DNA of 64,000 nucleotides from Allacma fusca. Lineage: Eukaryota; Arthropoda; Collembola; Symphypleona; Sminthuridae. Each line of letters begins with the position of its first letter. The stretch's first letter is position 1. The DNA lies in the NCBI GenBank assembly GCA_947179485.1, contig OX359249.1, forward strand, positions 34,830,250 through 34,894,249. The letters run 5' to 3'. Shown here piece by piece: positions 1,742-62,448 of this stretch. Made by a program: the position numbers and the translations under genes. The notes under the pieces are model-generated. The model ran no database searches. It was not told the origin of the DNA and worked only from the letters and a program-made list of their open reading frames with translations.

Positions 1742-3673
1742 TTACGACAAACGAATAAAATTTAAAGATCCTGCCATCTGAACATTCCTGCGATCTTCCT
1801 TTCGTTCTTTCAGCCAAAATAAAAAGACAATAACACCGTTTATAAAAAGAATCAGTAAAAGAGCTTGAAGAGTTGAAATTGCACCTTCTTTATTTGTGCT
1901 CAAGAAATGTTTCAACTCCCACCCTTTAGAATAAGGTATCACCACCAAATGAGAATTTGGAATTATCTGCCTCCATTTTTGTACTTGAGTGCTTCCACTG
2001 CTTCCTTTCCACTGCGATTTTCCGATCCATACAGTGTCAATAAAATTTGGCGTGGAGCCGGTACCAATCACAACATATGGTAAGTCCATTGGAAAGTATG
2101 CGCTTCGGAAAAATTGCGCGGATTTACTCACTTGCGGAAATCCTTTCTGATTCATCATAGTGTAATTCATGCTTGCTCCAGGAAGCACTGCACCATATGG
2201 CGGACAATGCGGTCTTCGACAATGACCAGACGTCATCATCCATTTCAGAAAATATCCATCATATTTAGGAGTGTTGATTACAGCTTGCACCTTATAAGTT
2301 GTATTCAAACCCTGAGAACTGTTATTATTTTGGATGATTTTCCTTACCAGCATTACATCCAATAGACCATTATCGTAGAAATCGTAGAATACAGCGCTGA
2401 CCACGTCGTCATATGATGCGAGAAGGTCGAAGTTTAAAGAGTAGGTACGGGTATAATTGCATTCTCTGTGTGTACAAGGAACATTTAAAAATACGACAGC
2501 TTGCGATTTATGACTTGAGCTCCCGACAGTGGCAACAGTTCCGATAAGATCTGGAAAGCCGTCCAGATCAAAGTCTCCAACTCGAAGTGTGATAGTTTCC
2601 TCATATGGTGTGTTTATATCAGGTACTAAAAAACCCCATGTAGTATTACGAGAATCCGCAAATTTAATGTTCAAAATTTTGAATTCATCATTATCTAATA
2701 TAATTATCCCACTACGCTGACAGTCCTTGTCACTGCAAAATGGAATCAGAGGAATTATTTTCCCTGACTGGTCTACGTCTAAGAACATCAGGCTCCCTAT
2801 TCGCTGTGGGCTAATTTTCCCTACGCGGATCACCTTATCTAGCTCCTTGGCAAATTTGGGTTTGTTTTGTTTTATTTCCACAACAGCATATTTTTCCAAA
2901 TGTGAATTACGTCGAGAATCTTGCGAGACAATAATAAGTTCCGGACAAAAATCTCCATCGAGATCAGCATATGCGTTGCTGTGTGGAGTTATAATGGGTA
3001 GGCATGTAGTATTACCACAATCAAATTTAAGAGGCTCGGACTTTTCGTTAAAAATCCAAAGTTTCCTCCCTGATGAATCTTCCCCAAATAGATCAGCCAC
3101 CATGTCCCCGTTCCAATCCGTAACTAAAGGTTCTTGTTTCAGTCGCAAAAAAGTATTGCTTCCATTCAAACGAATAGATGAATTTTGGCAGTTAAGACGG
3201 TGAACATCTCCTTCAATGATACGTACCACAACTTCACTGTTCTCTTTCACCGTTACCAGAATATCCAGCACACCATCTCCGGTAAAATCTGCTAAAGAGA
3301 GTCCAGTGATCCGTGCCGGCACGTCTGTTGTTCCGAAGGAGCTTAAATTACATTGAAATCCTGCCCTTGGTCGGAGAAAAGGTACTGTTGCATTTCCGAA
3401 GTAGATTTGAAACGAAGTTGCATTCTTTGAGAGAAACACCGTATCCAAGATTCGGTCAGAATCATAGTCACCGATAGCAACCGGAAACAAGTCGATGTTA
3501 CTTTCTCCGAAAACATCTGCCGTGACGTCATCCGATGAGGTTCCGTAAGTTATTCGAGGCTTCAATACCAGTGTTAATAGGATCCCAGTTCCAACGTACG
3601 CAAGTAACATTTTGAAGATATATTTTTCGTGTATTGCACTTTCCTTTCCACCAGTACAATAGCTAATTGGCAT
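1742..3673 (-). CDS. ITFG1: T-cell immunomodulatory protein / linkin homologue, FG-GAP repeat membrane protein
   Basis: A single uninterrupted frame of 643 codons, close to the roughly 610 residues of vertebrate ITFG1. The family is a type I membrane protein with an integrin-alpha-like beta-propeller outside the cell; in worms (LNKN-1) it supports tissue integrity and binds RUVBL1/2 and tubulin, and in mammals a shed form affects T cells. Visible here: a hydrophobic signal segment at about residues 22-38; repeated Ca-binding-type FG-GAP loops such as DYDSDRILD, DFTGDGVLD, DWNGDMVAD and DFDLDGFPD; many N-x-S/T sites; a transmembrane helix near residues 602-620; then a short basic tail. The ATG at 3673 is directly preceded by an in-frame TAA. 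A second ATG at 3610 (residue 22) would put the signal peptide at the very N-terminus and may be the true start. No intron interrupts it, which is unusual for this neighbourhood; it looks intact. Confidence 0.94.
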   Translation of the reverse strand: MPISYCTGGKESAIHEKYIFKMLLAYVGTGILLTLVLKPRITYGTSSDDVTADVFGESNIDLFPVAIGDYDSDRILDTVFLSKNATSFQIYFGNATVPFLRPRAGFQCNLSSFGTTDVPARITGLSLADFTGDGVLDILVTVKENSEVVVRIIEGDVHRLNCQNSSIRLNGSNTFLRLKQEPLVTDWNGDMVADLFGEDSSGRKLWIFNEKSEPLKFDCGNTTCLPIITPHSNAYADLDGDFCPELIIVSQDSRRNSHLEKYAVVEIKQNKPKFAKELDKVIRVGKISPQRIGSLMFLDVDQSGKIIPLIPFCSDKDCQRSGIIILDNDEFKILNIKFADSRNTTWGFLVPDINTPYEETITLRVGDFDLDGFPDLIGTVATVGSSSHKSQAVVFLNVPCTHRECNYTRTYSLNFDLLASYDDVVSAVFYDFYDNGLLDVMLVRKIIQNNNSSQGLNTTYKVQAVINTPKYDGYFLKWMMTSGHCRRPHCPPYGAVLPGASMNYTMMNQKGFPQVSKSAQFFRSAYFPMDLPYVVIGTGSTPNFIDTVWIGKSQWKGSSGSTQVQKWRQIIPNSHLVVIPYSKGWELKHFLSTNKEGAISTLQALLLILFINGVIVFLFWLKERKEDRRNVQMAGSLNFIRLS

Positions 3674-8700: not shown

Positions 8701-10424
8701 GAATTTCCTTGTTATCATTTGTGAGCCCCTGGTATGCCGTTTGTTTTGTCAGCTACTATACGCCGCTGTTTGTGTACCCTCACATCAAAGCTTATAGAAA
8801 GGAATGAGAAAAAAAAGAGTTAAATATCGTATTTCATAATAAACTTCTTCATAGTAAATGCCGCCCACATTCTCCACAGAAGTTGAAGTAGTATTGATAC
8901 GACTCAAAATCCCTTATTATTCCTGAACAACTTTACTCTATGAATTTAAGGATAGTCAGCTCTGCCTTTTGCAATTTCAATTTTCATTGTTTCCAAGAAT
9001 CTTTTTATCCCAGAAGATTCATTGTAGAAATGTACTTTTAGTGCTGAGCAAAGTACCACATAGGACAGTCGTCCGTTGTAGGGGGAATACATCCACTGTA
9101 ATTATATGTAGATACTACAGGATTTTCATCTCCTTTTTGCCTGATAACTCACGCTTCCACCAAAAGGACAGGAAGACTCAGTCTAATGGGCAAAAATAAA
9201 TATCCTTCAGTGTTGTTAAAAATTTCTACTGTTACCTCAGCATACAGAAGCGTTAGTCACGGGCTAGGGCCCTGATTGAAATTCGCAGAAGGGTCTAAAT
9301 AGAAACCGGAATTTTAAAGACGTTTCCTTTCAACTGTGTATAGGGAAAGGCTCATAATTTAAATGAAAATGGCGATAATTTGTATTCCGATGGTGCCTCC
9401 AAGATGCACTGTTTGATTTTACGAACTCAAAACAAAAACGTCGATCAGTAGTTTGTTGGGAATAGTGTGTATGTTACATGTAGGGATTTATACTTAAACA
9501 TAGGATTACATTTCAGGTGTGTGTGTGTGTGTATATGTATATGTATCTGCTGCAAACAAAATTTTATTACGGCAACTGCCTTAAACTTATAGCTCTGTCA
9601 TTTTTATTACTCAATGCTTGGAATATATTCAGAGTATTTTCATTCTTTTATTTTTAGGAAGCCAATATAGTGAGTGTTTGGTTATGAAAAGTGGAATGTA
9701 GGCAGACATGTGCATATGCATAGGAAGGACCGTGCATGAACTATCTTTTTTCCAGTACTACGTTAATAACAAAGCAGGGGAGAAATCGCCGAGCTGAGAG
9801 CCGTCGTCAGTGTACAACTATAGTCAACGTTAACAACAGTTAATGTAACATACGAGCATAGTCATAAAGTACGTGTTCGCATTCACACAAAATGACTTTT
9901 ACATAGAACCCTCATGAGGGAGTCTTCCTCTGATGAGGGAAAACTTATATATGTTCAATGGAAGTAAATGTCTGGCGGATGAAAAAAGCACTGAACAGAG
10001 GTAGTCAAGTGGGAGTTTTATCATCCTTGGGGTTGTAATGCCACAGGTGGTTTTGTTCTCCAAACATTTTATTCTTGCGTCGAATTTCATAGTCAGTCTA
10101 TGCTTCCCATGCTTTCAATTCCAAAGTTCTCGGGCTCGTCGTGTGATAAGTTTTTGTTCCCCACGCCGTCTTCAGTTTCGTTGGTAAATGGATATTTACG
10201 TGGAATAATTTCGTGCTAACTGTCTGGTGTTTTTTAATCAGTGATTTTTCAAAAGCCTCTCAATCCGTTGCTCCTCTCTACCTTCTCCACAGAGAGTTAC
10301 GTATCTCAAAAGTATTCTCAAAGACTACTTTGAAATATACCCTCGCAAGTTATTTTTTTTTGTGTGAGTTACACAGCAATTGCTATTCCAAGTGTCAGCG
10401 CTTGTAATACAAACAATTGCAGTC
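5721..10424 (+). other. Upstream spacer / possible 5' intron of the NHERF gene
   Basis: No supported coding exon. The plus strand is G/T-rich (5821-5880 has 18 G and 7 C), in keeping with plus-strand transcription. A GC-richer patch with CGCCGAGCTG and a TCAGTG initiator-like string lies near 9785-9820. A (GT)n run lies near 9520-9532. Just before the NHERF start codon, a T-rich tract followed by ACAATTGCAG at 10413-10422 could be a 3' splice site, which would place the 5' UTR exon upstream. The short ORFs here look like noise. Confidence 0.4.
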
Positions 10425-10985
10425 ATGTCAACTAAGGATATACCAGAGGATGCTCCGCAACCACGACTTTGTCAACTTGTGAAGTGGCCAGATTTTGATG
10501 GTTACGGGTTCAATTTGCACGGGGAGAAGACCAAACCTGGTCAGTACATTGGTAAGGTGGATAAAGACTCCCCGGCGGAAACGGCAGGCTTGAAACCCAA
10601 TGATCGCATCATTGAAGTTAATGGAACGAATATTTCAAATGAGAATCATAAGCAAGTCGTTCAACGGATCAAAGCAATACCAAATGAGACAAAGTTGTTG
10701 GTTTTGGACGAGAAGGAGGATCAATACTATAAAAATCTGAATGTGGTTGTTACGGGGAGCATGGCAAATGTCTTGGTTTTGAAGACTCCTGTTCCCAGAC
10801 CGTCCACACTTAATAATGCTGTCATTACTGCCACCAATGGTTCCAATGGAACCAGTAATGATAACGAGTCAGGAACTGGAACTCATAGTGATGAGGATCA
10901 CGACAGGGCTTCTCATGTCTCCGACAGTGGGTCTGGATCATCTATCCCGGTTCGTTATATTTCTGACTTGCTGTATATTCCATAG
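10425..10985 (+). CDS. Possible read-through (intron-retained) isoform of the NHERF gene ending without the ezrin-binding tail
   Basis: If the weak donor at 10950 is not used, the frame continues for only 11 more codons ([11 protein letters not shown]) to a TAG at 10983-10985. The product would be 186 residues with the PDZ domain and Ser/Asp/Thr linker but no ERM-binding helix. No clear AATAAA follows closely. This is an alternative reading, not a demonstrated isoform. Confidence 0.25.
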
Positions 10986-40082: not shown

Positions 40083-41732
40083 TTATGATGAATTATCCTC
40101 CAATAAAAAAAGAATTGCAAGTCGGCAAGCGATAAAGGCTAAGGCAAGGGTAGATGTGAATGCTGAATGTACGGAAGGAACTGCTCGGTTCACAAGCATG
40201 TGGGAGACACGGCTCCAGGATCCATTGTGGGGTCCGGCGGGGATATCTAAGATTCTTGCAAATATCTGGTAGACGTCTTCAAGGTGAATGGGTTTGTGAA
40301 TAATTCCTTTTTTAAAAGCTGGACAATTTAAAAAGACAAATTATTAAAAATCAGTCTTTTTTTTTTAAACTTAATATTATTTTATAATTTAATATAATTA
40401 TTATTTAAAAGTTAAAAGCAATCCCGGGGGCATGGATCCCGTGAGTATGGTCATAATTATTTGAAATGTACCTGGGCCTTTGGCAAAGAATACTCCTCTC
40501 ATATCAGGCATGTTCGGATATCCATGATTTCCTTCCCAAACATAATTACTCTCTTTATCACGTGGAATTTGCTTGCTAGTGAGCAAACCTCGGATGAAGT
40601 ATTTTTCTTTTGCTACCACCAGAATGTCTTGAGCCAAACGAGCATTTTTGTAATGATACTCATCTGGGATTTCCTCTCTCTTGTATACATCAACCCCTTC
40701 AACTTTTAACAGCCTCTGGTATACCTGGAAAAATATGAGATTCAAGTTATTAATGTCCAAATAATCTTTCAGTTTATTTCCTTGTATTTTTTTTCGTTGA
40801 CGAAGATTTACAGTAAGGGCAGAGTAAGCTACTCACAGAGTCCAGATGTTTTGCAAAAGGAGCTATTGCCATGAAAGATCCTCGATCTACGGATCTGTAA
40901 ACTTCACTTTTATCGATTTGCGAGTCTAAGCTAATATACTGAACTCCAGACCCCATGCCTGTCCAGGTCATGCCATGATCACTGAGAATCACTATATTTA
41001 CCTGTAATAATTATTATTAGAAATCATTAGTAACCCTTAGAATTTAAGATGGATTTACAGTATGTGGTCAAATAAAATTATCAGAGTGGACTCGTACCTT
41101 CTCATCCATTTGGGAGTCAATTAGCTGATCCAAGAGCTCGTTCAGCATGTTGTTAACATCAATTAAAGCCTGTTTTAGCTCATTAGAGTTGGGCCCGTAT
41201 TTGTGCCCAATATTATCAATATGCTCGCCATAAACCTACAAGAACAAAAAAAATTAATGGTCAACGGATTCCCACAGAAGTTCCCAAATCATCCTGTAGA
41301 AATCAATTATTATGGCTGTGATTGCTTCTGATGTTCCTTTCACATGCTATTTTTCTTACCATAACAAGGTCAAAATCCTGCTTTAGTTTCTGAACAGCAA
41401 TGTTGAATGTTTGTCGAATATTTTCAGTTCCCCTGGCTTCCCGGTAGGGTGTGCACTCAAATGGTTTGACTTCATTGAAGGGAACGTCACAACGGGACCA
41501 GAACCGAAGAAACGTTTTCTTTCCATAGCGTGTTGCTGTTGTCCAGATGGGCTCGGAATTCTGCCACCACTCAATTTTTGATGTAGTTTCGTGAGTAAAA
41601 ATATCAAATACAGCTTGGGTGGGGTCAGATATATTGAGGTCAAACATGTAATTGCCAATAACTCCATGTGTTTCGGGGAAACTGCAAATGAGATGATATA
41701 TTAATCGATTTTTCATATACGATAACCCTGTC

Positions 41733-41805
<73 letters not shown>

Positions 41806-44800
41806 TTTCGACCAGAAATATTATTTCTCAAAACTATTGTATATAGATATATAGCAGGCGACATCCCAACTTACACTCCAGTACTGACGGTGGTCCAAGA
41901 AGGATAGGACACGGGAGGAAATATTGGTTCCACCCATTCCACATGGACTCCTTCCGAAATGAAATGTTGGAATGCGTTAAGATGCTTTTTATGCAAGTCA
42001 TAATAATCCCACCGGAATCTGTTAGAATTTTTCAATTAACTCACGTTAGTTTTTCCTCCATCATACTCATTTGTCTTTCTCTATCAAAATCACATTTCAA
42101 ATCGTAGCCACCATGAAATTATATTAATCAAAAAAATCACACTGAAACATTTTTTGTTTGATTGAAACGGAAACCCTTGCCTGTCATCTCTGTGAAAAGT
42201 ATTCTCACAAAATCAATTTCACTTCCGCTTCCCTCTAACCTTATGTGTATACCTAACCAACTGGAAATATGACTTACCACTGGATCCTGGCTACGAGATT
42301 TCATGAGGGTAAAATTCTTTAAATTTTATTATTATATCCTGCAATGCAACTGGCCGGAGCTATGTACATGCTCCTGTTACCTTGGGTCACTCAATTTTCT
42401 ATTATCATTTCAATTGTTAGTTCCTGGTGGAGTGTGTGGCTGACACATGCATAGCAAGATAGTGTTTCCGTATAGTGTTTTCATACAATGTTTTCATACA
42501 ATGTTTTCATACAATGTTCTCATATAGTGTGGGTACAAATGCTTGTGTACGGCATTCAGTAATTACTATAGTGAGGTTTTTCTCGACTCCGTATGTAAAA
42601 AAAAAAGGGAACAGACTGAGTGAAGGAGATAAATTCAATAAAATGCTGTCATGCAGAGGTATACTTATTGTTTTAATAGGACTTATAATAATTACAATCA
42701 GAGCCAAGCACCCATGCTGGAATGTCCATTGATCGCAATTAGAACCGGTAATGTTCCCATTTAAAGTTGAACAGACCGATTTTCCTATTTGATTCGAGTA
42801 AAATGGGCTTTTGTGGGAAGTCCTATTGAAAATCACGTTTTTCCTATCGGGAAGCTAATAAGTGGCTTGAAACGAGACAGGGATAAATCGCGTGTTTTTG
42901 ATTAACTTTGATGAATAAACTTTGGCCCCTTTTGGAATCCCCTATTTGTATTTTTTAGTGAGCACCGATTTTTCAGCAACTCTCAATATTTAAAGAGTAT
43001 CCTACCTCAGACGGGCTCCGCCGTCCTTGCACGTAAGTTTTCTTCGACTAAGAAGTAAAAATAATTATATGATACGTCTCTGTATACATTCGGAAACTCC
43101 GGGACACAACTGTAGAAAATTATACCATGGATTTTAGTCAGACCATTTGGGGAAAATCCAGGTGTCCTATTTCCTTTGCAGAAAATCCCAGCTCAAATAC
43201 GATTTTTAAGCAGTATACTGTAGCTTCAATTTGCAATTTGTCTCTTAACAGTGAAAGGGTTTAGATCTGGAAGTACACAGTTCTCTGGAAACGCGAAGTA
43301 ATTTCCCGAACACAACAGTTTTATCCTTTGTCCTATAAGTCATGTTGCTCTCAATTTCCTAAATTGTTCCAAGTCGTCCGTCCTACATGAGGCTATAGTC
43401 GAGAGTAGGATATTGCACATCCGCCGGTTGGGACTTCCCTAAACTTTTTCTTGATTACAAGATGGAAATGATAGTGACACCGAATGTGACCCATCCATTT
43501 TAGCCCGATAAAATTCCTAGTCTTGAATCACGGAAATCCATTTGTCCCTTTCATGGCAATCATATGGGAAAATCAGACTGCATTTATAAGGTATTTCATT
43601 TATTTATGTATAGCCATGGCCGTACAAATTTCCTCATGTCCTGGTCGCAACACTAAATTTTTTCAGGCCGACTCCCCCAACTTCAAATCAATAGTTCCAA
43701 TTTCTCTGAACCTCCTCGAATGCATAGTCTCTTGCACAACTTGATTTAATTTTACAGTATTAGAAATAAGGAGTCTACTTCCCAAAAGACTACTTGTTCT
43801 GAAAAACTTGTGTAAAAGCGAAATTTTATTTTGAATCCCTCAAAATATAAAGTCATTTGACGAGTTCACTTCGGATGGAAATAAAACTATCAACTCAATA
43901 GTGACTCAATCACGAATGAATGAAGAATGTGTTTATCAAAACAGATATCTATTTCCGTGGTCCTCCACTGGATAAAAGTATAATTTCCAATGCAATTTAC
44001 TTTCCCTCGTCCAGAGAAGTTGCTTTCACTATAGTAATGCCTTAAGTGATGTGGTATTTCCTAGGTAATCATTTTGAATGCCTGCAGGATGAAAAGCATG
44101 TTGAATGATTGATTGGTTAGAGTAAATACAAGGATCATTGTACTTAGCACCCGAATGATTTTCGTCATTAAACTCTTGTTATCGCACTCATTTAATTGTC
44201 ATCCTGTCATTGTGTGAATTTGGGTAGAGTGTTAGCCTGAATGCTCCCCTTTGTACTCCCTATGTTCATCCTATTTGAAGAGAAACGAGTTTTGAGATAC
44301 AAATGTAAACAGACACTTAGACTTTTATGTACTGAATAAAAGGTTTCGTGCTTAAGTTGAAATGAAAATATCCCCTCCTGGCCACGAAACAAAAGTAGGA
44401 AGAGGAGAATAGTATCCGATTATCTCCTCCCCAACGTTTCCTCACACACAGGACAATTAGATTGGGCAATATAATTATGGTATGTACAACTCCAACGGCG
44501 TCTCCTAGTACATGTGTGAGCCTCGTGTACGAAAATAATGTCAAGGTAGCACCTCACACTTCAAACAGTAGTCACAGCCGAATGCTCCGATTGTACATAC
44601 CTACGTGCCGGGGATTGGAGGACTGATTCGGATTTATAATCTAACGGCTTTTATCATTTATTGCCTCTTATTTATTGAGCCCTCCAGATAAGAGTTCCTG
44701 CTGATTGTCAGGGAAGAAGAAGAGTTTTATTAAAAAATAGAGGTGCTTACTATATACATGTATATTCCTTCTCCACACCGGCTCCTCTCACTCAAAATGT

Positions 44801-54015: not shown

Positions 54016-56105
54016 GATTAACGCTTACACAAATTAATACTAACGACACCAAGAAAATTCAGAACAATAATGCAATTTTGCGTTGTATTTTAAAATTTTA
54101 TTACTTCTCATTAACAATAACCATAACAAGATGCAGTAATTCGCTGCTTTGTTTTCGTCATGCACTTCCACAAATGCAAATATGTAGTAATAAACTGAAC
54201 TAACGTAACACACAGCCTGACTACATTCGATTAATTACCACCATGTGCTATCTAAACTTAGCATGCGGTGCGGTAAACAAGACAAGACTCGTATTAATTT
54301 ATGCTTAATTAACCATACATTAACTATATTTTAGGTGCCTTTTTATGTCAAAACCTCGTCTAAACTGTCACACTCCATCTGGGATGGTAAAGTACTGTGT
54401 GACGTCCCAGTTGAGAATGAAAACGAGTTAAATAGATTACTAAAATACTAGAAATCATTCTCATGGAATTTGTCAACTTGGAATTGGAACACTACATCAA
54501 AGACGACAAGCATGAAATATTTTTGTTTAAGTACCACAAATCACAATAGAAAATATATATTCACTTGGGACTTATCTCACACATTGTACCGTAAATACAG
54601 AACATTGAAATTCACGAGGAGTATTTTTTGACACACTTATTCAATTTTCACACACTAACTTGCCACATGGAAGAAATTTAAAAATTTTTGTACAGCAAAG
54701 CAACTACTCGAGAGCTTCTACATCTACGCGAAAACTTTCGCAGATATTTTTGGTATAAATTTGATTGTACTAACATTAAATGTCTTCTGATAAGTAATTA
54801 CATTTAATAAATAAAGACACATTATAAATCATGCGAATATATTAATATTTTTAAACTATTTTTATTTAACTATTTGGAATGCTGCAGTATAGCACTGGGT
54901 CATTCTAACACATCTCTTTTAGAGATAGTGTTCTACCACACAGTCGTGGTAATATAAGAAAAATCAAGCTTTTAGAAAATAACACCAAAACAAGTTTGCG
55001 AATTTTCGACATAGATTTAAATGCTTGAATGAATCCTAATTCTACACCGTAACTTATTTGTTAGGTGCTCAGATACTTTCTAAAGTAAATGCATAGCCGG
55101 AAGTTATTTTGCATACCTTCAGAAACAGACCAACAACTCTGAATGGTATACGCGCGCTATACTTATAGATAAATCGACCAGTAAACTAAAAGTAGAAAAA
55201 ATAACAAACACGATGAAAAATCAAAAATCTTTCAAAGATTAACATTTCATGATCATTACGAAGCGAATCACACTTTACAGGCTTATACTTTCAAACTTTA
55301 GATGTATTTGGAATGTTGGAAACAATACACATCTTTCCTTATGTGGGTGATTAACATTCTAAAATAGCAGACCGAACATTTCATTTTAACATCCAAGTAT
55401 CAAACTATTTACTGCAATGTGAAACACTGCTGCAGCTCTGCAGTCTCCCTACGTTTAGATTCTTGCCCTCACATAAAACATGCTACTATGTACTACTCCA
55501 TTAAGTTTACGTATTGCGTCAAGAATACATCAGTGTATGCATCAGCACTTCTTGGAATTGTGGCAAAAATTAATCAATTTATAACTTAAATGTTTTACAC
55601 AAGGTTGTACCTAGATTTTAACTGTTCCCTTAGTAATTTAATAATAATAATATTAGTAATTAATTTAAGTTTAGTTATATCTTTCACGTTGACTTCAGTA
55701 AGTGTCTCCGATGATTGATACGCACTGATTACAACTGACGTTAGAAGAAAGTTGAAAACAAAAGAAGACGATGCCATGGAAATAAATCGAATAAGACCGA
55801 ACTGCAATGGTCACAACCATGACAAAAAATAGAAGAATAGTTGCCTTATTCACTTTTGGAATGCAAGCGAAATATTCACCTCGAATGAAACCTAAATGAA
55901 GGTACAACTATAACAGCTAGAAAAATCCTTAACAAACAAGATCAATTATCACAAACTTCACAAAAGGAAGTTTGACCACTCCATTTGTTTCGTGCCGGAA
56001 TGTTATAATGACAGTTGACATGAAACAATTGCCAACAAGTCGAAGTGAATGAAAATGGAATGCTTATGTTACAAGCATTAGAATGTTCTCAAGGAACTAA
56101 AATAT
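54016..56105 (-). other. Probable long 3' UTR / downstream flank of the PH-actin gene
   Basis: This AT-rich stretch follows the PH-actin stop codon. The first perfect minus-strand AATAAA I noticed is near 54862, about 1.2 kb after the stop; an ATTAAA variant lies near 55637. A 61-codon frame starting with ATG at 55777 has a signal-peptide-like N-terminus but no further support. Confidence 0.4.
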
Positions 56106-59100
56106 TTAAATAAGCCAATACGAAGGGCCTGGACCATTATCATAATTACTTCTTTTCATCAGCGATTTTTCAAATGCTTCAGTTCCAGCAAGCACCGAAC
56201 TTCCAATGAAAGACGCATGGTAACGGTATGGAGATGACCGAATCTGAAAAATGTTCCCCACAGAGAATTAATACACAGTAATTTACTAATAATTACTACT
56301 TCTAATTTTGAAGATTTATTGAAAAAAGGTCAAAGAAAAAATGGCTTACTTTAGGTTTTAAATGAGGAGGGCATAACTTGGTCAACTCAAATTCCAGACG
56401 TTCCGCAAATCCAGGGATTAAACTGCAACCGCCGACCAAGAAAATATTTTGGGATACCTCTTTGCGGATGTCAACTTCGCAGTTCTAAATTTCATTAAGA
56501 TTTGGAGATTTTATTATCAAACCAGAGCAAGTTTACACGCAGTAATCTTTTGTAACAACAAAAAATCTCAAAATTTTCAACTGAAGTACCTGAATCGATT
56601 GCAATAAAAGCTTAGGAAGCCCGTCGCAGTCTAGTCCGTAGTACCCCGGATCAAAAAAGCCTTCAGCAACACCCCTTAGGACCTCTTGATTTACGCCTAT
56701 CAAATTCGAGAAAGGGAGTACGTCCCTTAAGTCCATCTCAACGACTATCTCTTCAGTTTCCTGGGAAGGCTTCTTACTTCCGCCAGAGTTAACGCAGATG
56801 AAATTTTCAGCAATAAACCGGAGAACTAAATTTTCAGCAGGTGTTGAAAGGTATAGACCGTTCTCCTGTAGTGTAATACATTGGAACGGTTGTCAGTATT
56901 GGAAACTTGTTTTCATAAGCTTAAGCTTCAAAGATCCAAAATAACCGATTAGCAGATACAATATTCAGTAACTCAATCAAAGCATACCTGTGGACCAAGA
57001 CCTTGACGCAATGAGTGCTTTAACGGAGAACCACCTAACGGAGCTCTTTTCCAGGCGTGGCTTATGACAAAACCATGTGTCATTGGGACAATATCTGACC
57101 TCTCTCCAACATCGCAGACCAAACCGTTGTCTACCGAATGGGCCCAAAATGACACAAGAGTTTGATGGTATAATATAGCACTTCGTGCCTGAATGGGGTC
57201 CAAATATAAAGGATTCAATGCATATTATATCCACTAGTATAATTCTTAAAACTATTGTCATAACGATTGGTGTAATCTTACATTAAAATCATTAAATAAC
57301 AGCTGTAAAATTTTCCGTCTACAGTTGCTATCGACTCTTCTAGGTAGGTTTATTATGACTCGGTAGTTTTCAATTTTTATATTTAGCTCGGAGAATATTT
57401 TCACTAAAAATCCTTTTAATGCTACCACATCCAACGAATTCTAAAATAGAACAGAAAACATAGTAATAAGCATTTTTCACCTTCACAATAAAAAAATCTT
57501 CGTTTCTCTAACCCCACCAAATAATTTTATACATATTTTACCTGGCAAAGTTTAGAGGAGCTTTCAAACGGGAACCTTATTTTGGCTCTTTTCCTATTTT
57601 CTGGTAGGTATACTTCATTGCCGTACATAATAGTACCGTCTTCGTTTTCAGACATAACCGCACAAAAGAATTTGGCAGGTAGGGTTGCTACAAGCAAAAA
57701 GAAACCTTATGTTAAAAAACAATACACGGCAGTAATAACTTTGACAAGCGAAACGAAAATATGCCTGTAGCAGTATTTTAAATTTCTGCGCACAAGATTA
57801 AACGCTTTAACTTACGCTGGTGAGTAAGAACTCCAGCTCTCATGTTTGTTGATCCAATATCCACTAAAACAATGTCACGAAAAATAGAGAGACTGCGGGG
57901 AATAATAGGAGTCAAGTAAAAGTCTGTGGAAGTCATTTCTTGTTGAATTGCTTCCGCCCACTTCGCGGCTTCCCCAGTTGATCCACATTGAAAAACGTAG
58001 TAATGGCCACTCTGTGGAATCATCCAAATGCATTTATGATTTTAGGCATTCCTACGTGAAACAAACTTTTAACTGCTAGTACTTAAATAATTAGCTACCC
58101 CGTCGTCAACGCCGATTATCCGGTTGATCATGCTTTTTCCCTTCTCAATCCCAACATATTCAACGGGGTCAAGAAAATCCACTTTCCCACCACTAAGCTG
58201 TATGGCCTGGAAGACAGTCTCACAATCCTCTTTCTGCAAAGTGAAATATCATTAACCATAAGTATGGAGGGGTTCTGAACTTTAAAATTGAAAACTATCA
58301 TATCAACCTATATTAATTATGTATTATATGGCGATATACAATTTTTATGCATATGTATAATTACAAATATAATACATACATATATATATATATATAATTA
58401 TATATATATATATAATTACATAAATTTCAAATACTGGATGTATATCAGCAAAAGAATATTCTAATCTCACGCTTATTTTACCTCATATGCAGTTAATTTC
58501 CCTATATTCAGTACGCAATATTTTCTGCGCCATGCATTCCAGAAAGTTCCTTTTCGTCGATTGCCACTCAAGATTTGCATATGACCTGCCATAAATTCTG
58601 CTGATGTTGAGTGATCCAGAGACGAATGCTTAGGTTCACACATGGCATAGAGGCGTGTAAGCATGGGTTTCTACAAAAAGGAAAACACGACAATGTTAAT
58701 GCATTCTAATTGTCTTCAATAATTAAAATCCTTACACCTTAAATCTTTTATTTATCGTTATTTTTTCTAAAAAAATATACCGGATCCCATTCTGAAGGAA
58801 TTTTGATGTGCTTAGTAACAATTTCATCAAGCAGTCCATTGTTTTTGTTATGGGAATGGGAATTTACAATACTGTTCGAGTACTCCGATTCGGTGGGTGA
58901 AAGCTGGTGGATTATGTCAAAACCATTTGTCCCATTTTCCTTCCGCTGGCGCAGGGTTTCGGCACAAAATTCCACACAGTTATCTAACTCGTGCTCACTA
59001 TCTGAAGCAGACATCTGACTTTCGGTTTCTTCTTGAATAACCTCTAATCCTGTGGGGCATCGTAATAAATGTATGCCGTATTGAGAACTTGCTATCAAAT

Positions 59101-62100
59101 GTTTCATCAGGAATCAGGAAAGGGAAAAGATAACTTGATTTCAATCCACAACCCCAGAGGTCACAGTTGATAACAATGCCACACTTTTATCAGGTCAGGT
59201 GAGGAAATGTGGATTACACCAGGATGGTATTATGAATAAAGGCAATACAAAACATACCGAAATCGTTGAAAGAACTTTCACGGAAGTCGTCACTGTTGAA
59301 CAAATCGTAGTCATCCTCAGGATTACACTCCGGTTCAGTTTCTATAACGACGTCAAAGTCTTCAAAGTCACCTTCCTCATCGTCGACGTTATCTATGTAG
59401 ACTGGTTCTTGTCGATTTTTGCAATTATTCTGAGCAAGAAGTAATTGGGCCGCTGCTGGGATTAAACTCTCTGTTGTCCAAAAAAAAGTTCAAATGTTTA
59501 ATAAAAACTTCAGTAACTTCCTTAAATATATATAGCATAATGCAATGGATGAACATAAAAATAAATGTAGCCGTCACTGCCTTTGCAATTACAAATTCAT
59601 AAATCTTGACAATTTCATTCTCAATTAACAGCAGCACAAATTGTCAGCAAAAAGCAAAATAAGATAGGCGGCAAAACTTACCAACACTTACGGTCGCATT
59701 CGATTTAGGCTGGGCGTAAATGCACTCATTGGATTTAGGAACATCATATATAATGCTCTAATAACACACAAAAATATAAGTGGTGTCACAGCCAGAAAAA
59801 AAATTAACAAACAAAATTATTAAACCAAACAAATTTCAGAAACACAGAGAAAAGGTGAGTCAAGCAGTAAGAAAAGGAAACCAAAAGCTGAACTCTGATT
59901 AGTCTTTAAACAGTGATGACAATTAACTGGGCAGGGACAAGCTTCATTGTCGACATGCTGAGGTAACGCACAAGTTACTTCGTGTGTAATATTTTCATTA
60001 GCATCAACTAGAATATGTGCTGGCAAACTGCGCCATTAATGGAAGGTAAATTCTACTCAAAACCCCTTCTAACTTAACTATCAGCATTGCATGAGAATAT
60101 AGTGACATGTAATAAAAGCGGCACAACAGTCTCGTGTACAGAAAAAAACCATAATTGTATCCTTTCCGCTTTAACCTCTTCTAAATTTCGTTTTTACTGT
60201 AATAATCCTTCCAATGTGTAACAACAACTTGCCATGTACTCCTCTGCTGACAGCTAGCACCAAGTCCTGTTTGGTTTCGCATCACCTCACACATATTACA
60301 CACTATGAACGGTGGAACATCTTAAGAAGAAAGCCAGGCAAGAGTAAGATACTTTGTGCAAAGTCCACACAGTACACACACACACACTCAATCACAAGCA
60401 TTTACACGTGCAGCTTTGTACTCCGGCACCGCTGCTGTCATATTAACGTATACGTACACTTCATATAATAACAATTATTGCTCAAGTTACAGCTAAGAGC
60501 CATAAAAAAACCATTTCGCTTTCGCATTCATTGTAAATTTTACACTAGGAGTCCGTCAGAAAAGTATTACCCATACGATAAAACCTAATCTTTGCTAAAT
60601 TAATGACAGAACTACTATTAAAAATATTGTTCAAACATACTGTCGTGCCACAAGGAACGGAAAAAAGTAATAAACAAAATTTTATCTTATTTCCCTATGC
60701 CCTATCGCCATATAAAAGAGACCGGATTATTGTAAATGAGATAAACGACTAATTAATAATTACTGCAAACCAAAGCAGTACCCTTCTAGAAAAGAGGAAA
60801 TCATGGTATGACTCAATAAGTAGAAAATCGATATGTACACTGACAAGACCCTACTCTACTGTAACAACAACAACAGCAAGTGACAGGGGTACAGTAATAA
60901 AATAAAATAAACGAACTTCAACAATAAAAAAAAATTACAGGAACACCCAAACACCCACACCAATACACAAAATAAATGCTGCATCAGCACATCAGTGCTG
61001 CCAGCATTTAACAGAGCATCACATTGCATTTGCGTTAATCGAACCTATTTTAATACAAGTGCGGAAACAGACATTTCAATTTGAAAAAGATCGAATGAGC
61101 TGACGCGAGAATGTGAAGAGTAAATATGAAACAGATTTTATAGGGAATTTGAGCCCATTTTTGTTATTCCATGTATTTTCAAAACTAACAATAAGGCCAG
61201 TGCCGAGCACGTCAAACAGATTCAACAGAGTAAAGGTATACTTTCAGTCTGTATCAAGATGTAGACCATGTCGGTCTTATACTCACATTGTAAACACACA
61301 GGCAATTTCACCATATGCGAATGGCCAAAACAGCCCCACTAAAACCTAATCACTCCACCCACAATTGCAACAGCTCTAAAATATATTGAAGAGTTTAATT
61401 TTTTCCTCAGAGCGACAAGGAAGGCAGATCCCAACTGTGAACTTCTCATTCCATGAGAGTACAGAGTATTAATTTTTTAATAACATTCAATAAATTCCGT
61501 TTCGTAGGGAAATCAACTACTTATGGTATATGTCTAAAACTTCTGTGATCGACTGGTTTGATGCATTTATACTTTCGTACTACTCAACTGGTACAGATGC
61601 ATTACAGAAAAAACATTACTTGATTTGCTAGTTGAAAGCTTACATATAAAATAAAAATAAAGCCCATACATAATTACATACATGTTGTTGATAAATGAAA
61701 TCTGATGTTTCGCACTTCTTTAACTACATACATATGCAATTATGTGTCTACGTGCTTCGAAATTTGCATTGCTTTAACTGCTACAACCACTACTCACACA
61801 GTCGAGGATAATATTCTCGTCTTATCTTGACTAGGTTAATGATTCTTATGAAGAAGAAGCCGTCGAGAGGGATGCATGATAGTCTGCCTCGAATAGTATG
61901 CCAAGCAGCAAGAAAACAAGCAGATTTTTTTTAAATTTAAGGTTTTCAAGTTACAATCACAAAAAATAAATAAAAATCAGGAAGAGATAATCACCTGGTG
62001 GTTATTGGAATGTCGATGGAAATGAGAGAGATTTTCATAGAGTGCAACTTTGTTTGTGTCAGATCCGTCGAGTGTGTTGACATTTTCATAGAGAGAATCC

Positions 62101-62171
62101 GTCGAAGGTCCATTTGCTTTCACTTTTGGACTGGTTAGAGCGGGGTTACTATGGAGAATTTTCGAGCTCAT
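56106..62171 (-). CDS. PH domain plus actin-related domain protein with N-terminal SH2-type tyrosine motifs, thirteen exons
   Basis: Minus-strand exons: 62171-61995, 59757-59682, 59470-59258, 59091-58781, 58670-58482, 58233-58099, 58011-57816, 57687-57542, 57440-57282, 57188-56988, 56865-56590, 56484-56350, 56243-56106. Phases agree throughout and give 783 codons plus TAA. Residues 1-84 carry YENV (Y28), YENL (Y45), YDVP (Y63) and YAQP (Y73), which fit Grb2-type and Crk-type SH2 ligands. Residues about 112-146 are strongly acidic. A PH domain spans about 286-394, with the C-terminal helix Trp in AAKWAEAI. From about 410 to 783 there is a full-length actin fold: phosphate-1 loop DIGSTNMRAG (418-427), hinge Gln in YHQTLVSFW, phosphate-2 region CDVGERSDIVP, adenine loop VGGCSLIPGFAER, C-terminus aligned to actin's. 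Actin's catalytic His161 is not conserved. An in-frame TGA four codons upstream supports the start. Likely a cortical, phosphoinositide-recruited adaptor; function is inference, and I do not recognise a named family. Confidence 0.87.
58375..58417. repeat. (AT)n-rich microsatellite in intron between the two PH exons
   Basis: Imperfect AT run interrupted by AATTA, in the 248-base intron between exons 58670-58482 and 58233-58099 of the PH-actin gene. Confidence 0.9.
59758..61994 (-). other. Intron 1 of the PH-actin gene (2.2 kb)
   Basis: The donor is CACCAG before GTGATT, the acceptor TTATTAG before AGC. Inside, 59880-60027 on the minus strand is open and codes a Cys/His-rich stretch (ACPCPVNCHHC) that could be a rare exon. 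However, its likely 3' splice sites do not fit the phase-0 flanking exons and no good donor follows. A short CA run lies near 60376. The plus strand is C-rich (60901-60960 has 15 C and 3 G), matching minus-strand transcription. Confidence 0.7.
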
Positions 62172-62208
62172 TTCTATTTTTTGTCACCTCTTCGAGTTGG
62201 AAACACAC
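62172..62208 (-). other. Probable 5' UTR part of the first coding exon of the PH-actin gene
   Basis: TTTCCTTTCACACAG immediately before 62208 is a strong 3' splice site (pyrimidine tract then CAG). The exon that holds the start codon therefore probably begins here, with non-coding exon(s) further upstream, perhaps beyond the window. Confidence 0.55.

Positions 62209-62380: not shown

Positions 62381-62448
<68 letters not shown>

Follow-up and report, generated by a model that had tools for sequence, protein, structure and literature searches.

Actin-related proteins (Arps) usually localise through partners in a complex, and Arp10/11 caps the Arp1 filament in dynactin. To our knowledge, a PH domain is absent from all Arps of Drosophila, human and nematode. 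Adaptors of the AFAP1, Gab and Dok type combine a PH domain with tyrosine motifs; we know of no actin fold among them. In filactin of Dictyostelium, the partner of the actin domain is filamin-like and not a PH domain. The main text on filactin describes an actin domain that lies behind a long N-terminal extension and is highly like conventional actin (PMC2441452). According to the main text on Drosophila Arp53D, an N-terminal extension of 40 residues sets the location of the protein together with the actin fold, and non-canonical Arps tend to be young and divergent, with expression in the testis (PMC8291977). The terms 'PH domain' and 'pleckstrin' are absent from the main text of both papers.

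We analyzed a window of Allacma fusca DNA (the whole 64,000-nucleotide stretch) with a minus-strand gene that, at the level of sequence, specifies one predicted protein of 769 residues. Its N-terminal tail contains tyrosine motifs and an acidic region and leads into a PH domain, behind which lies a degenerate domain of the actin-related type. The protein shares the full-length fold of conventional actin (PF00022), and every PDB match listed (60 out of 158 in one search, 60 out of 110 in another) is an actin. It differs from conventional actin in being 27% identical to it, in the loss of His161, Lys213, Lys336 and the greater part of the D-loop, and in the PH domain and 245-residue tail that precede the actin domain. 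The long N-terminal extension recalls filactin as its main text presents it, but the actin domain is degenerate here and not in filactin. A divergent actin fold behind a longer N-terminus is also common to Arp53D and the other non-canonical Arps portrayed in the main text of PMC8291977. Arp10/Arp11 of dynactin resembles the protein in its degenerate actin fold, its long branch, a similar SMIPGF/SLIPGF stretch and a phase-0 intron one codon away (at 284 in the PH-actin gene). The combination of tyrosine motifs and a PH domain is that of the AFAP1-, Gab- and Dok-type adaptors. The sequence-only reading knew of no conventional Arp with a PH domain, and in the open-licence literature searched no PH-actin fusion was found by title and start of abstract. 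Automatic annotations of the same domain order may well exist in other arthropods.

The gene has the following features, given in window coordinates.

61995..62171, minus strand: exon 1, residues 1-59, with the ATG, Y28-ENV and Y45-ENL
59682..59757, minus strand: exon 2, residues 60-85, with Y63-DVP and Y73-AQP
59258..59470, minus strand: exon 3, residues 85-156, with the acidic stretch and Y109-IDN
58781..59049, minus strand: exon 4, residues 156-245, without a Pfam match
58482..58670, minus strand: exon 5, residues 246-308, first half of the PH domain (KGTFWNAWRRKYCVL)
58099..58233, minus strand: exon 6, residues 309-353, middle of the PH domain, followed by the weak donor GTAGCT
57816..58011, minus strand: exon 7, the fusion exon, residues 354-419, with the PH end (Trp helix AAKWAEAI) and the first actin strands with the phosphate loop DIGSTNMRAG
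57542..57687, minus strand: exon 8, residues 419-467, actin subdomain 2, D-loop mostly absent
57282..57440, minus strand: exon 9, residues 468-520, actin subdomain 1
56988..57188, minus strand: exon 10, residues 521-587, second phosphate loop DVGERSDIVP, with Q137 retained and H161 replaced by D
56590..56865, minus strand: exon 11, residues 588-679, actin subdomain 4 and plug region
56350..56484, minus strand: exon 12, residues 680-724, actin subdomain 3, with VGGCSLIPGF
56106..56243, minus strand: exon 13, residues 725-769 and the stop, C-terminal part of the actin fold
55637..55642, minus strand: possible poly(A) signal ATTAAA, about 460 bases past the stop codon

The 769-residue frame results from joining the 13 exons of the window sequence from 62171 to 56106. 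All 12 introns have GT..AG borders, and the phases agree throughout. Twelve exons are open in one frame alone, that demanded by the upstream phase, and exon 10 is open in two. The frame starts with an ATG at 62171, just inside an open stretch that begins at 62183, and contains no stop within its 769 codons; exon 13 has one stop, which ends the frame. The 13 phase-matched exons in one frame that the sequence-only reading had proposed therefore stand with their outer coordinates, while its protein length of 783 residues has to be reduced by 14. A profile-guided splice aligner, given the actin profile and blind to the exon list, placed the borders of the last four introns exactly where the model has them (57282/57188, 56988/56865, 56590/56484 and 56350/56243). 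A (TA)n microsatellite lies at about 62386-62442, roughly 215 bases before the ATG.

Several features of the model would also fit two neighbouring genes, or a decaying gene, that had been wrongly joined. The donor of intron 6 is weak, residues 1-245 (exons 1-4) have no Pfam match, and the splice aligner failed to find exons 7 and 8, in whose place it put a spurious piece at 59196-59175. The codon bias is weak as well. Exons 3, 4, 6, 10, 11 and 12 (6 of 13) are significantly different from intron sequence (5% level); the other seven, including actin exon 9, are not, in what is a weak test (exon means against overlapping stretches of 30 codons, or 25 for exon 2, from introns and intergenic DNA of the window). 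We nevertheless consider a wrong join very improbable, given the 769 codons without a stop, an actin match that spans model positions 7-399 of 410, and an exon 7 that encodes parts of both domains without a stop.

A Pfam search of the full protein placed the actin domain (PF00022) at residues 401-760 with 136.9 bits (cut-off 27, E 8.9e-40), a full-length match above the curated cut-off. The PH domain (PF00169) was placed at residues 273-379 with 23.0 bits (E 1.2e-4), below the cut-off of 25.1. When residues 246-397 were scanned alone, it rose above that cut-off (26.9 bits, E 7.5e-6) and covered model positions 3-104 of 105. The complete actin fold of the sequence-only reading is thus present, and the PH domain very probably so, but their limits shift from 286-394 and 410-783 to the Pfam matches above, with the protein ending at 769. 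The only other Pfam hit up to E 10 is to IR1-M and no better than chance (E 0.1, with 13 bits for a cut-off of 25); no filamin-type repeats were found before the actin domain in this listing. The PH part had four weak matches among PDB chains up to E 10 (CAPS, beta-spectrin III, pleckstrin 2 and myosin X), the best at E 0.1, and we rejected a PH subfamily assignment by this route.

The two domains meet in exon 7, which runs from the PH end into DIGSTNMRAG, as had been read from the sequence. Without this exon the PH score drops to 14.4 bits, so that exon 7 contributes 12.5 bits. Taken alone, exon 7 has no Pfam match, as expected because it holds two half-domains. Because both domains meet in one exon, in one frame and without a stop, the fusion does not depend on any guess about splicing between the domains. 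We are highly confident that the PH domain and the actin fold are fused in one protein.

To describe the state of the actin fold, we aligned it to springtail actin and used the functional roles of actin residues known from the actin literature. The two sequences are 27.2% identical over 360 columns, a divergence like that of non-canonical Arps and far from filactin's close likeness to conventional actin. Subdomain 3 is best preserved (36% identity), followed by subdomains 1 and 4 (25% each) and subdomain 2 (7%). Retained residues (human numbering) include D11, G13, S14, Q137, D154, G156, R210, E214, G301 and G302; the alterations include N12I, G15T, K18R, D157E, G158R, H161D, K213A, T303C, M305L, Y306I and K336Y. 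The D-loop spans columns 39-51, and nine of these 13 are empty in the alignment. Measured against the marks of conventional actin (the D-loop and the catalytic Gln137 and His161), the domain has thus lost most of the D-loop, has Asp at 161 and retains Gln137. This pattern suggests a phosphate cleft that is partly retained, an altered adenine pocket and hydrolysis that is unlikely. It also suggests that the domain would make no ordinary filament contacts on its pointed-end side. At the barbed-end cleft, 4 of 12 sites are identical to actin, with Y143W, Y169F and I345V as conservative changes. The barbed-end surface is not specially preserved, because the Arp2 and Arp3 rows have 5 of 12 identical sites each. 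The fold is thus degenerate, and the actin-like surface proposed earlier is that of a pseudo-actin rather than of polymerising actin.

We profile-searched the Allacma fusca assembly (392,743,791 bases in 91 contigs), in which the gene's contig of 55,591,601 bases corresponds to chromosome X1. The PF00022 profile gave 52 exon-level matches, two in the PH-actin gene and the others in 13 further loci, whose exons were joined with the profile-guided aligner. These are four actins (96.5-100% identical to the reference actin), two actin-like genes (L013 and L015, 64% and 67% identical to actin) and seven Arps. Comparison with the PDB confirmed Arp1 (E 1.2e-214) and Arp10 (E 4.8e-60; its gene model is without its N-terminal part) as loci separate from the PH-actin gene, and by our own reading the others are Arp2, Arp3, Arp4, Arp5 and Arp6. 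Arp8 was not recognised among the PF00022 matches in the genome, where insertions may hide the gene rather than it being absent. Two of the actin genes, L009 on contig C10 and L011 on C9, encode an identical protein over 374 modelled residues.

The PH-actin gene is single-copy. Its protein had 24 matches in the genome, of which 13 are its own exons and 11 fall in the actin, actin-like, Arp1 and Arp10 loci. No PH paralogue was found in the genome up to E 10, all three matches being the gene itself. Among viral contigs, none of the 23 pattern matches is a relative, for a single-sequence query that finds close relatives only. The NCBIfam models syringactin (45.6 bits, cut-off 300) and MamK (16.9 bits, cut-off 400) were also rejected, both being far below their cut-offs.

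The sequence-only reading had called for a tree of the actin part against the Arps. The resulting tree of 14 rows is poorly resolved: just one inner branch out of ten carries a star, and both the PH-actin branch (2.85) and the Arp10 branch (3.18) are long. AU tests rejected none of the nine constraints tried, in which PH-actin was grouped with a single Arp, with Arp5 and Arp6 as a pair, with either actin-like gene or with the actins (p-AU 0.142-0.418). The genome has its own Arp10, and a clade of it with PH-actin, at p-AU 0.418, is neither supported nor rejected. As nine of nine tests reject no grouping, membership in an Arp family is not shown either, and we did not retain an assignment to a known Arp. 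The actin part contains six introns, of which one (at 329, phase 0) has the same position as in Arp1; intron positions of L013 are unreliable, since the model rebuilt for it did not agree with its row in the alignment. The protein is a divergent member of the actin family.

The fusion could be real and its actin fold nonetheless be a structural module of a stable complex, as in Arp4, Arp5, Arp6, Arp8 and Arp10, which does not touch filaments; the PH domain may then make protein contacts. The divergent Arp rows of the alignment have also lost active-site residues, each differently: His161 in Arp4 and Arp10, Gln137 in Arp4, Arp5, Arp6 and Arp10, Lys213 in Arp4, Arp5 and Arp10, and 10 of the 13 D-loop columns in Arp4, 7 in Arp6 and 3 in Arp5. 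The long branch, like that of Arp10, points the same way. The loss patterns differ, however, in that Arp5 and Arp6 keep His161 and PH-actin keeps Gln137. Among the PDB matches of the actin domain below E 1e-29, those listed (60 of 110) are all conventional actins, with no Arp among them. We also know of no PH domain in Arp4, Arp5, Arp6, Arp8 or Arp10, and on balance we find such a module rather unlikely.

The comparison with Drosophila Arp53D raises the possibility of a lineage-specific germline Arp whose N-terminal extension, including the PH domain, would target germline actin structures. The gene is divergent and single-copy in Allacma fusca, in keeping with the young, divergent and testis-expressed genes and the location-setting extension depicted in the main text of PMC8291977. 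L013 and L015, however, are nearer to actin and therefore more Arp53D-like in that respect, and we judge a germline Arp improbable. Males lose one copy of chromosome X1 in early embryogenesis, according to the sections of PMC10427803 used here; the X1 location of the gene neither excludes nor supports this alternative.

The two actin-like genes also differ from each other. L013 (G000:C12:46220800-46224000) has Asn in place of His161 and a D-loop four residues shorter, and is probably another pseudo-actin. L015 (G000:C9:22769800-22774000) retains Q137, H161 and both phosphate loops and has a four-residue insert after the D-loop. Its contig, C9 (48,059,808 bases), is close in size to chromosome X2 (48.07 Mb in the sections used of PMC10427803).

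The tail in front of the PH domain has five tyrosines within residues 1-125, in YENV, YENL, YDVP, YAQP and YIDN. Four of these five lie in YxN or YxxP motifs, which 101 of 20,000 shuffles of residues 1-125 matched, although we note that motif types and stretch were picked after the sequence had been seen. YxN is a docking motif of Grb2-type SH2 domains and YxxP of Crk/Nck-type domains, and the N-terminus is perhaps tyrosine-phosphorylated. Residues 108-200 contain 32 acidic and 4 basic residues. Phosphoinositide targeting by the PH domain is plausible, but its basic motif K-x7-R-x-K is, as we read it, just partly canonical and short of the full phosphoinositide motif.

Our preferred reading, which we hold tentatively as somewhat short of probable, is a membrane-tethered, non-polymerising actin-related adaptor. 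The PH domain would hold the protein at the membrane, the phosphorylated YENV, YENL, YDVP and YAQP motifs would recruit SH2 adaptors, and the actin fold would be a docking surface that neither polymerises nor hydrolyses. Rather than being a filament subunit, the actin domain may dock on the pointed end of a filament or bind actin regulators. We propose pointed-end docking because the D-loop, on the pointed-end side, is mostly lost and subdomain 3 is best kept, and we favour this form for a first test by its likeness to Arp10/11 on the Arp1 filament. Several points count against the adaptor reading: the PH domain is below the Pfam cut-off in the full-length protein and has no PDB match better than E 0.1, the basic motif is partial, the codon bias is weak, exons 7 and 8 escaped the splice aligner, and the barbed-end cleft is no better kept than in Arp2 and Arp3. 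A stronger version, a new kind of membrane-tethered Arp with its PH domain on phosphoinositides, phosphotyrosine-bound adaptors and a D-loop-less pseudo-actin that caps or templates pointed ends at the membrane, seems improbable. If true, it would unite signalling and filament anchoring in one polypeptide.

With a PH domain in its own chain, an actin fold could be brought to a membrane directly. A fold that lacks the catalytic His and the greater part of the D-loop, and in which subdomain 3 is best kept, would also offer a natural experiment on the surfaces of actin that are usable without polymerisation.

Elsewhere in the window, a single open frame of 643 residues at 1745-3673 (minus strand) has FG-GAP repeats and an ITFG1 C2 domain and is ITFG1-like. 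A PDZ domain at 10368-10982 (plus strand) is NHERF-like by eye, and two open stretches at 40404-41827 (minus strand) match type I phosphodiesterase/pyrophosphatase and are ENPP-like by eye. The cuticle chitin-binding domain has at least 150 matches in the genome, as expected of an arthropod. Four cuticle-protein matches at G000:C8:28175298-28204934 are spaced by exactly 9,813 bases and form a recent tandem array.
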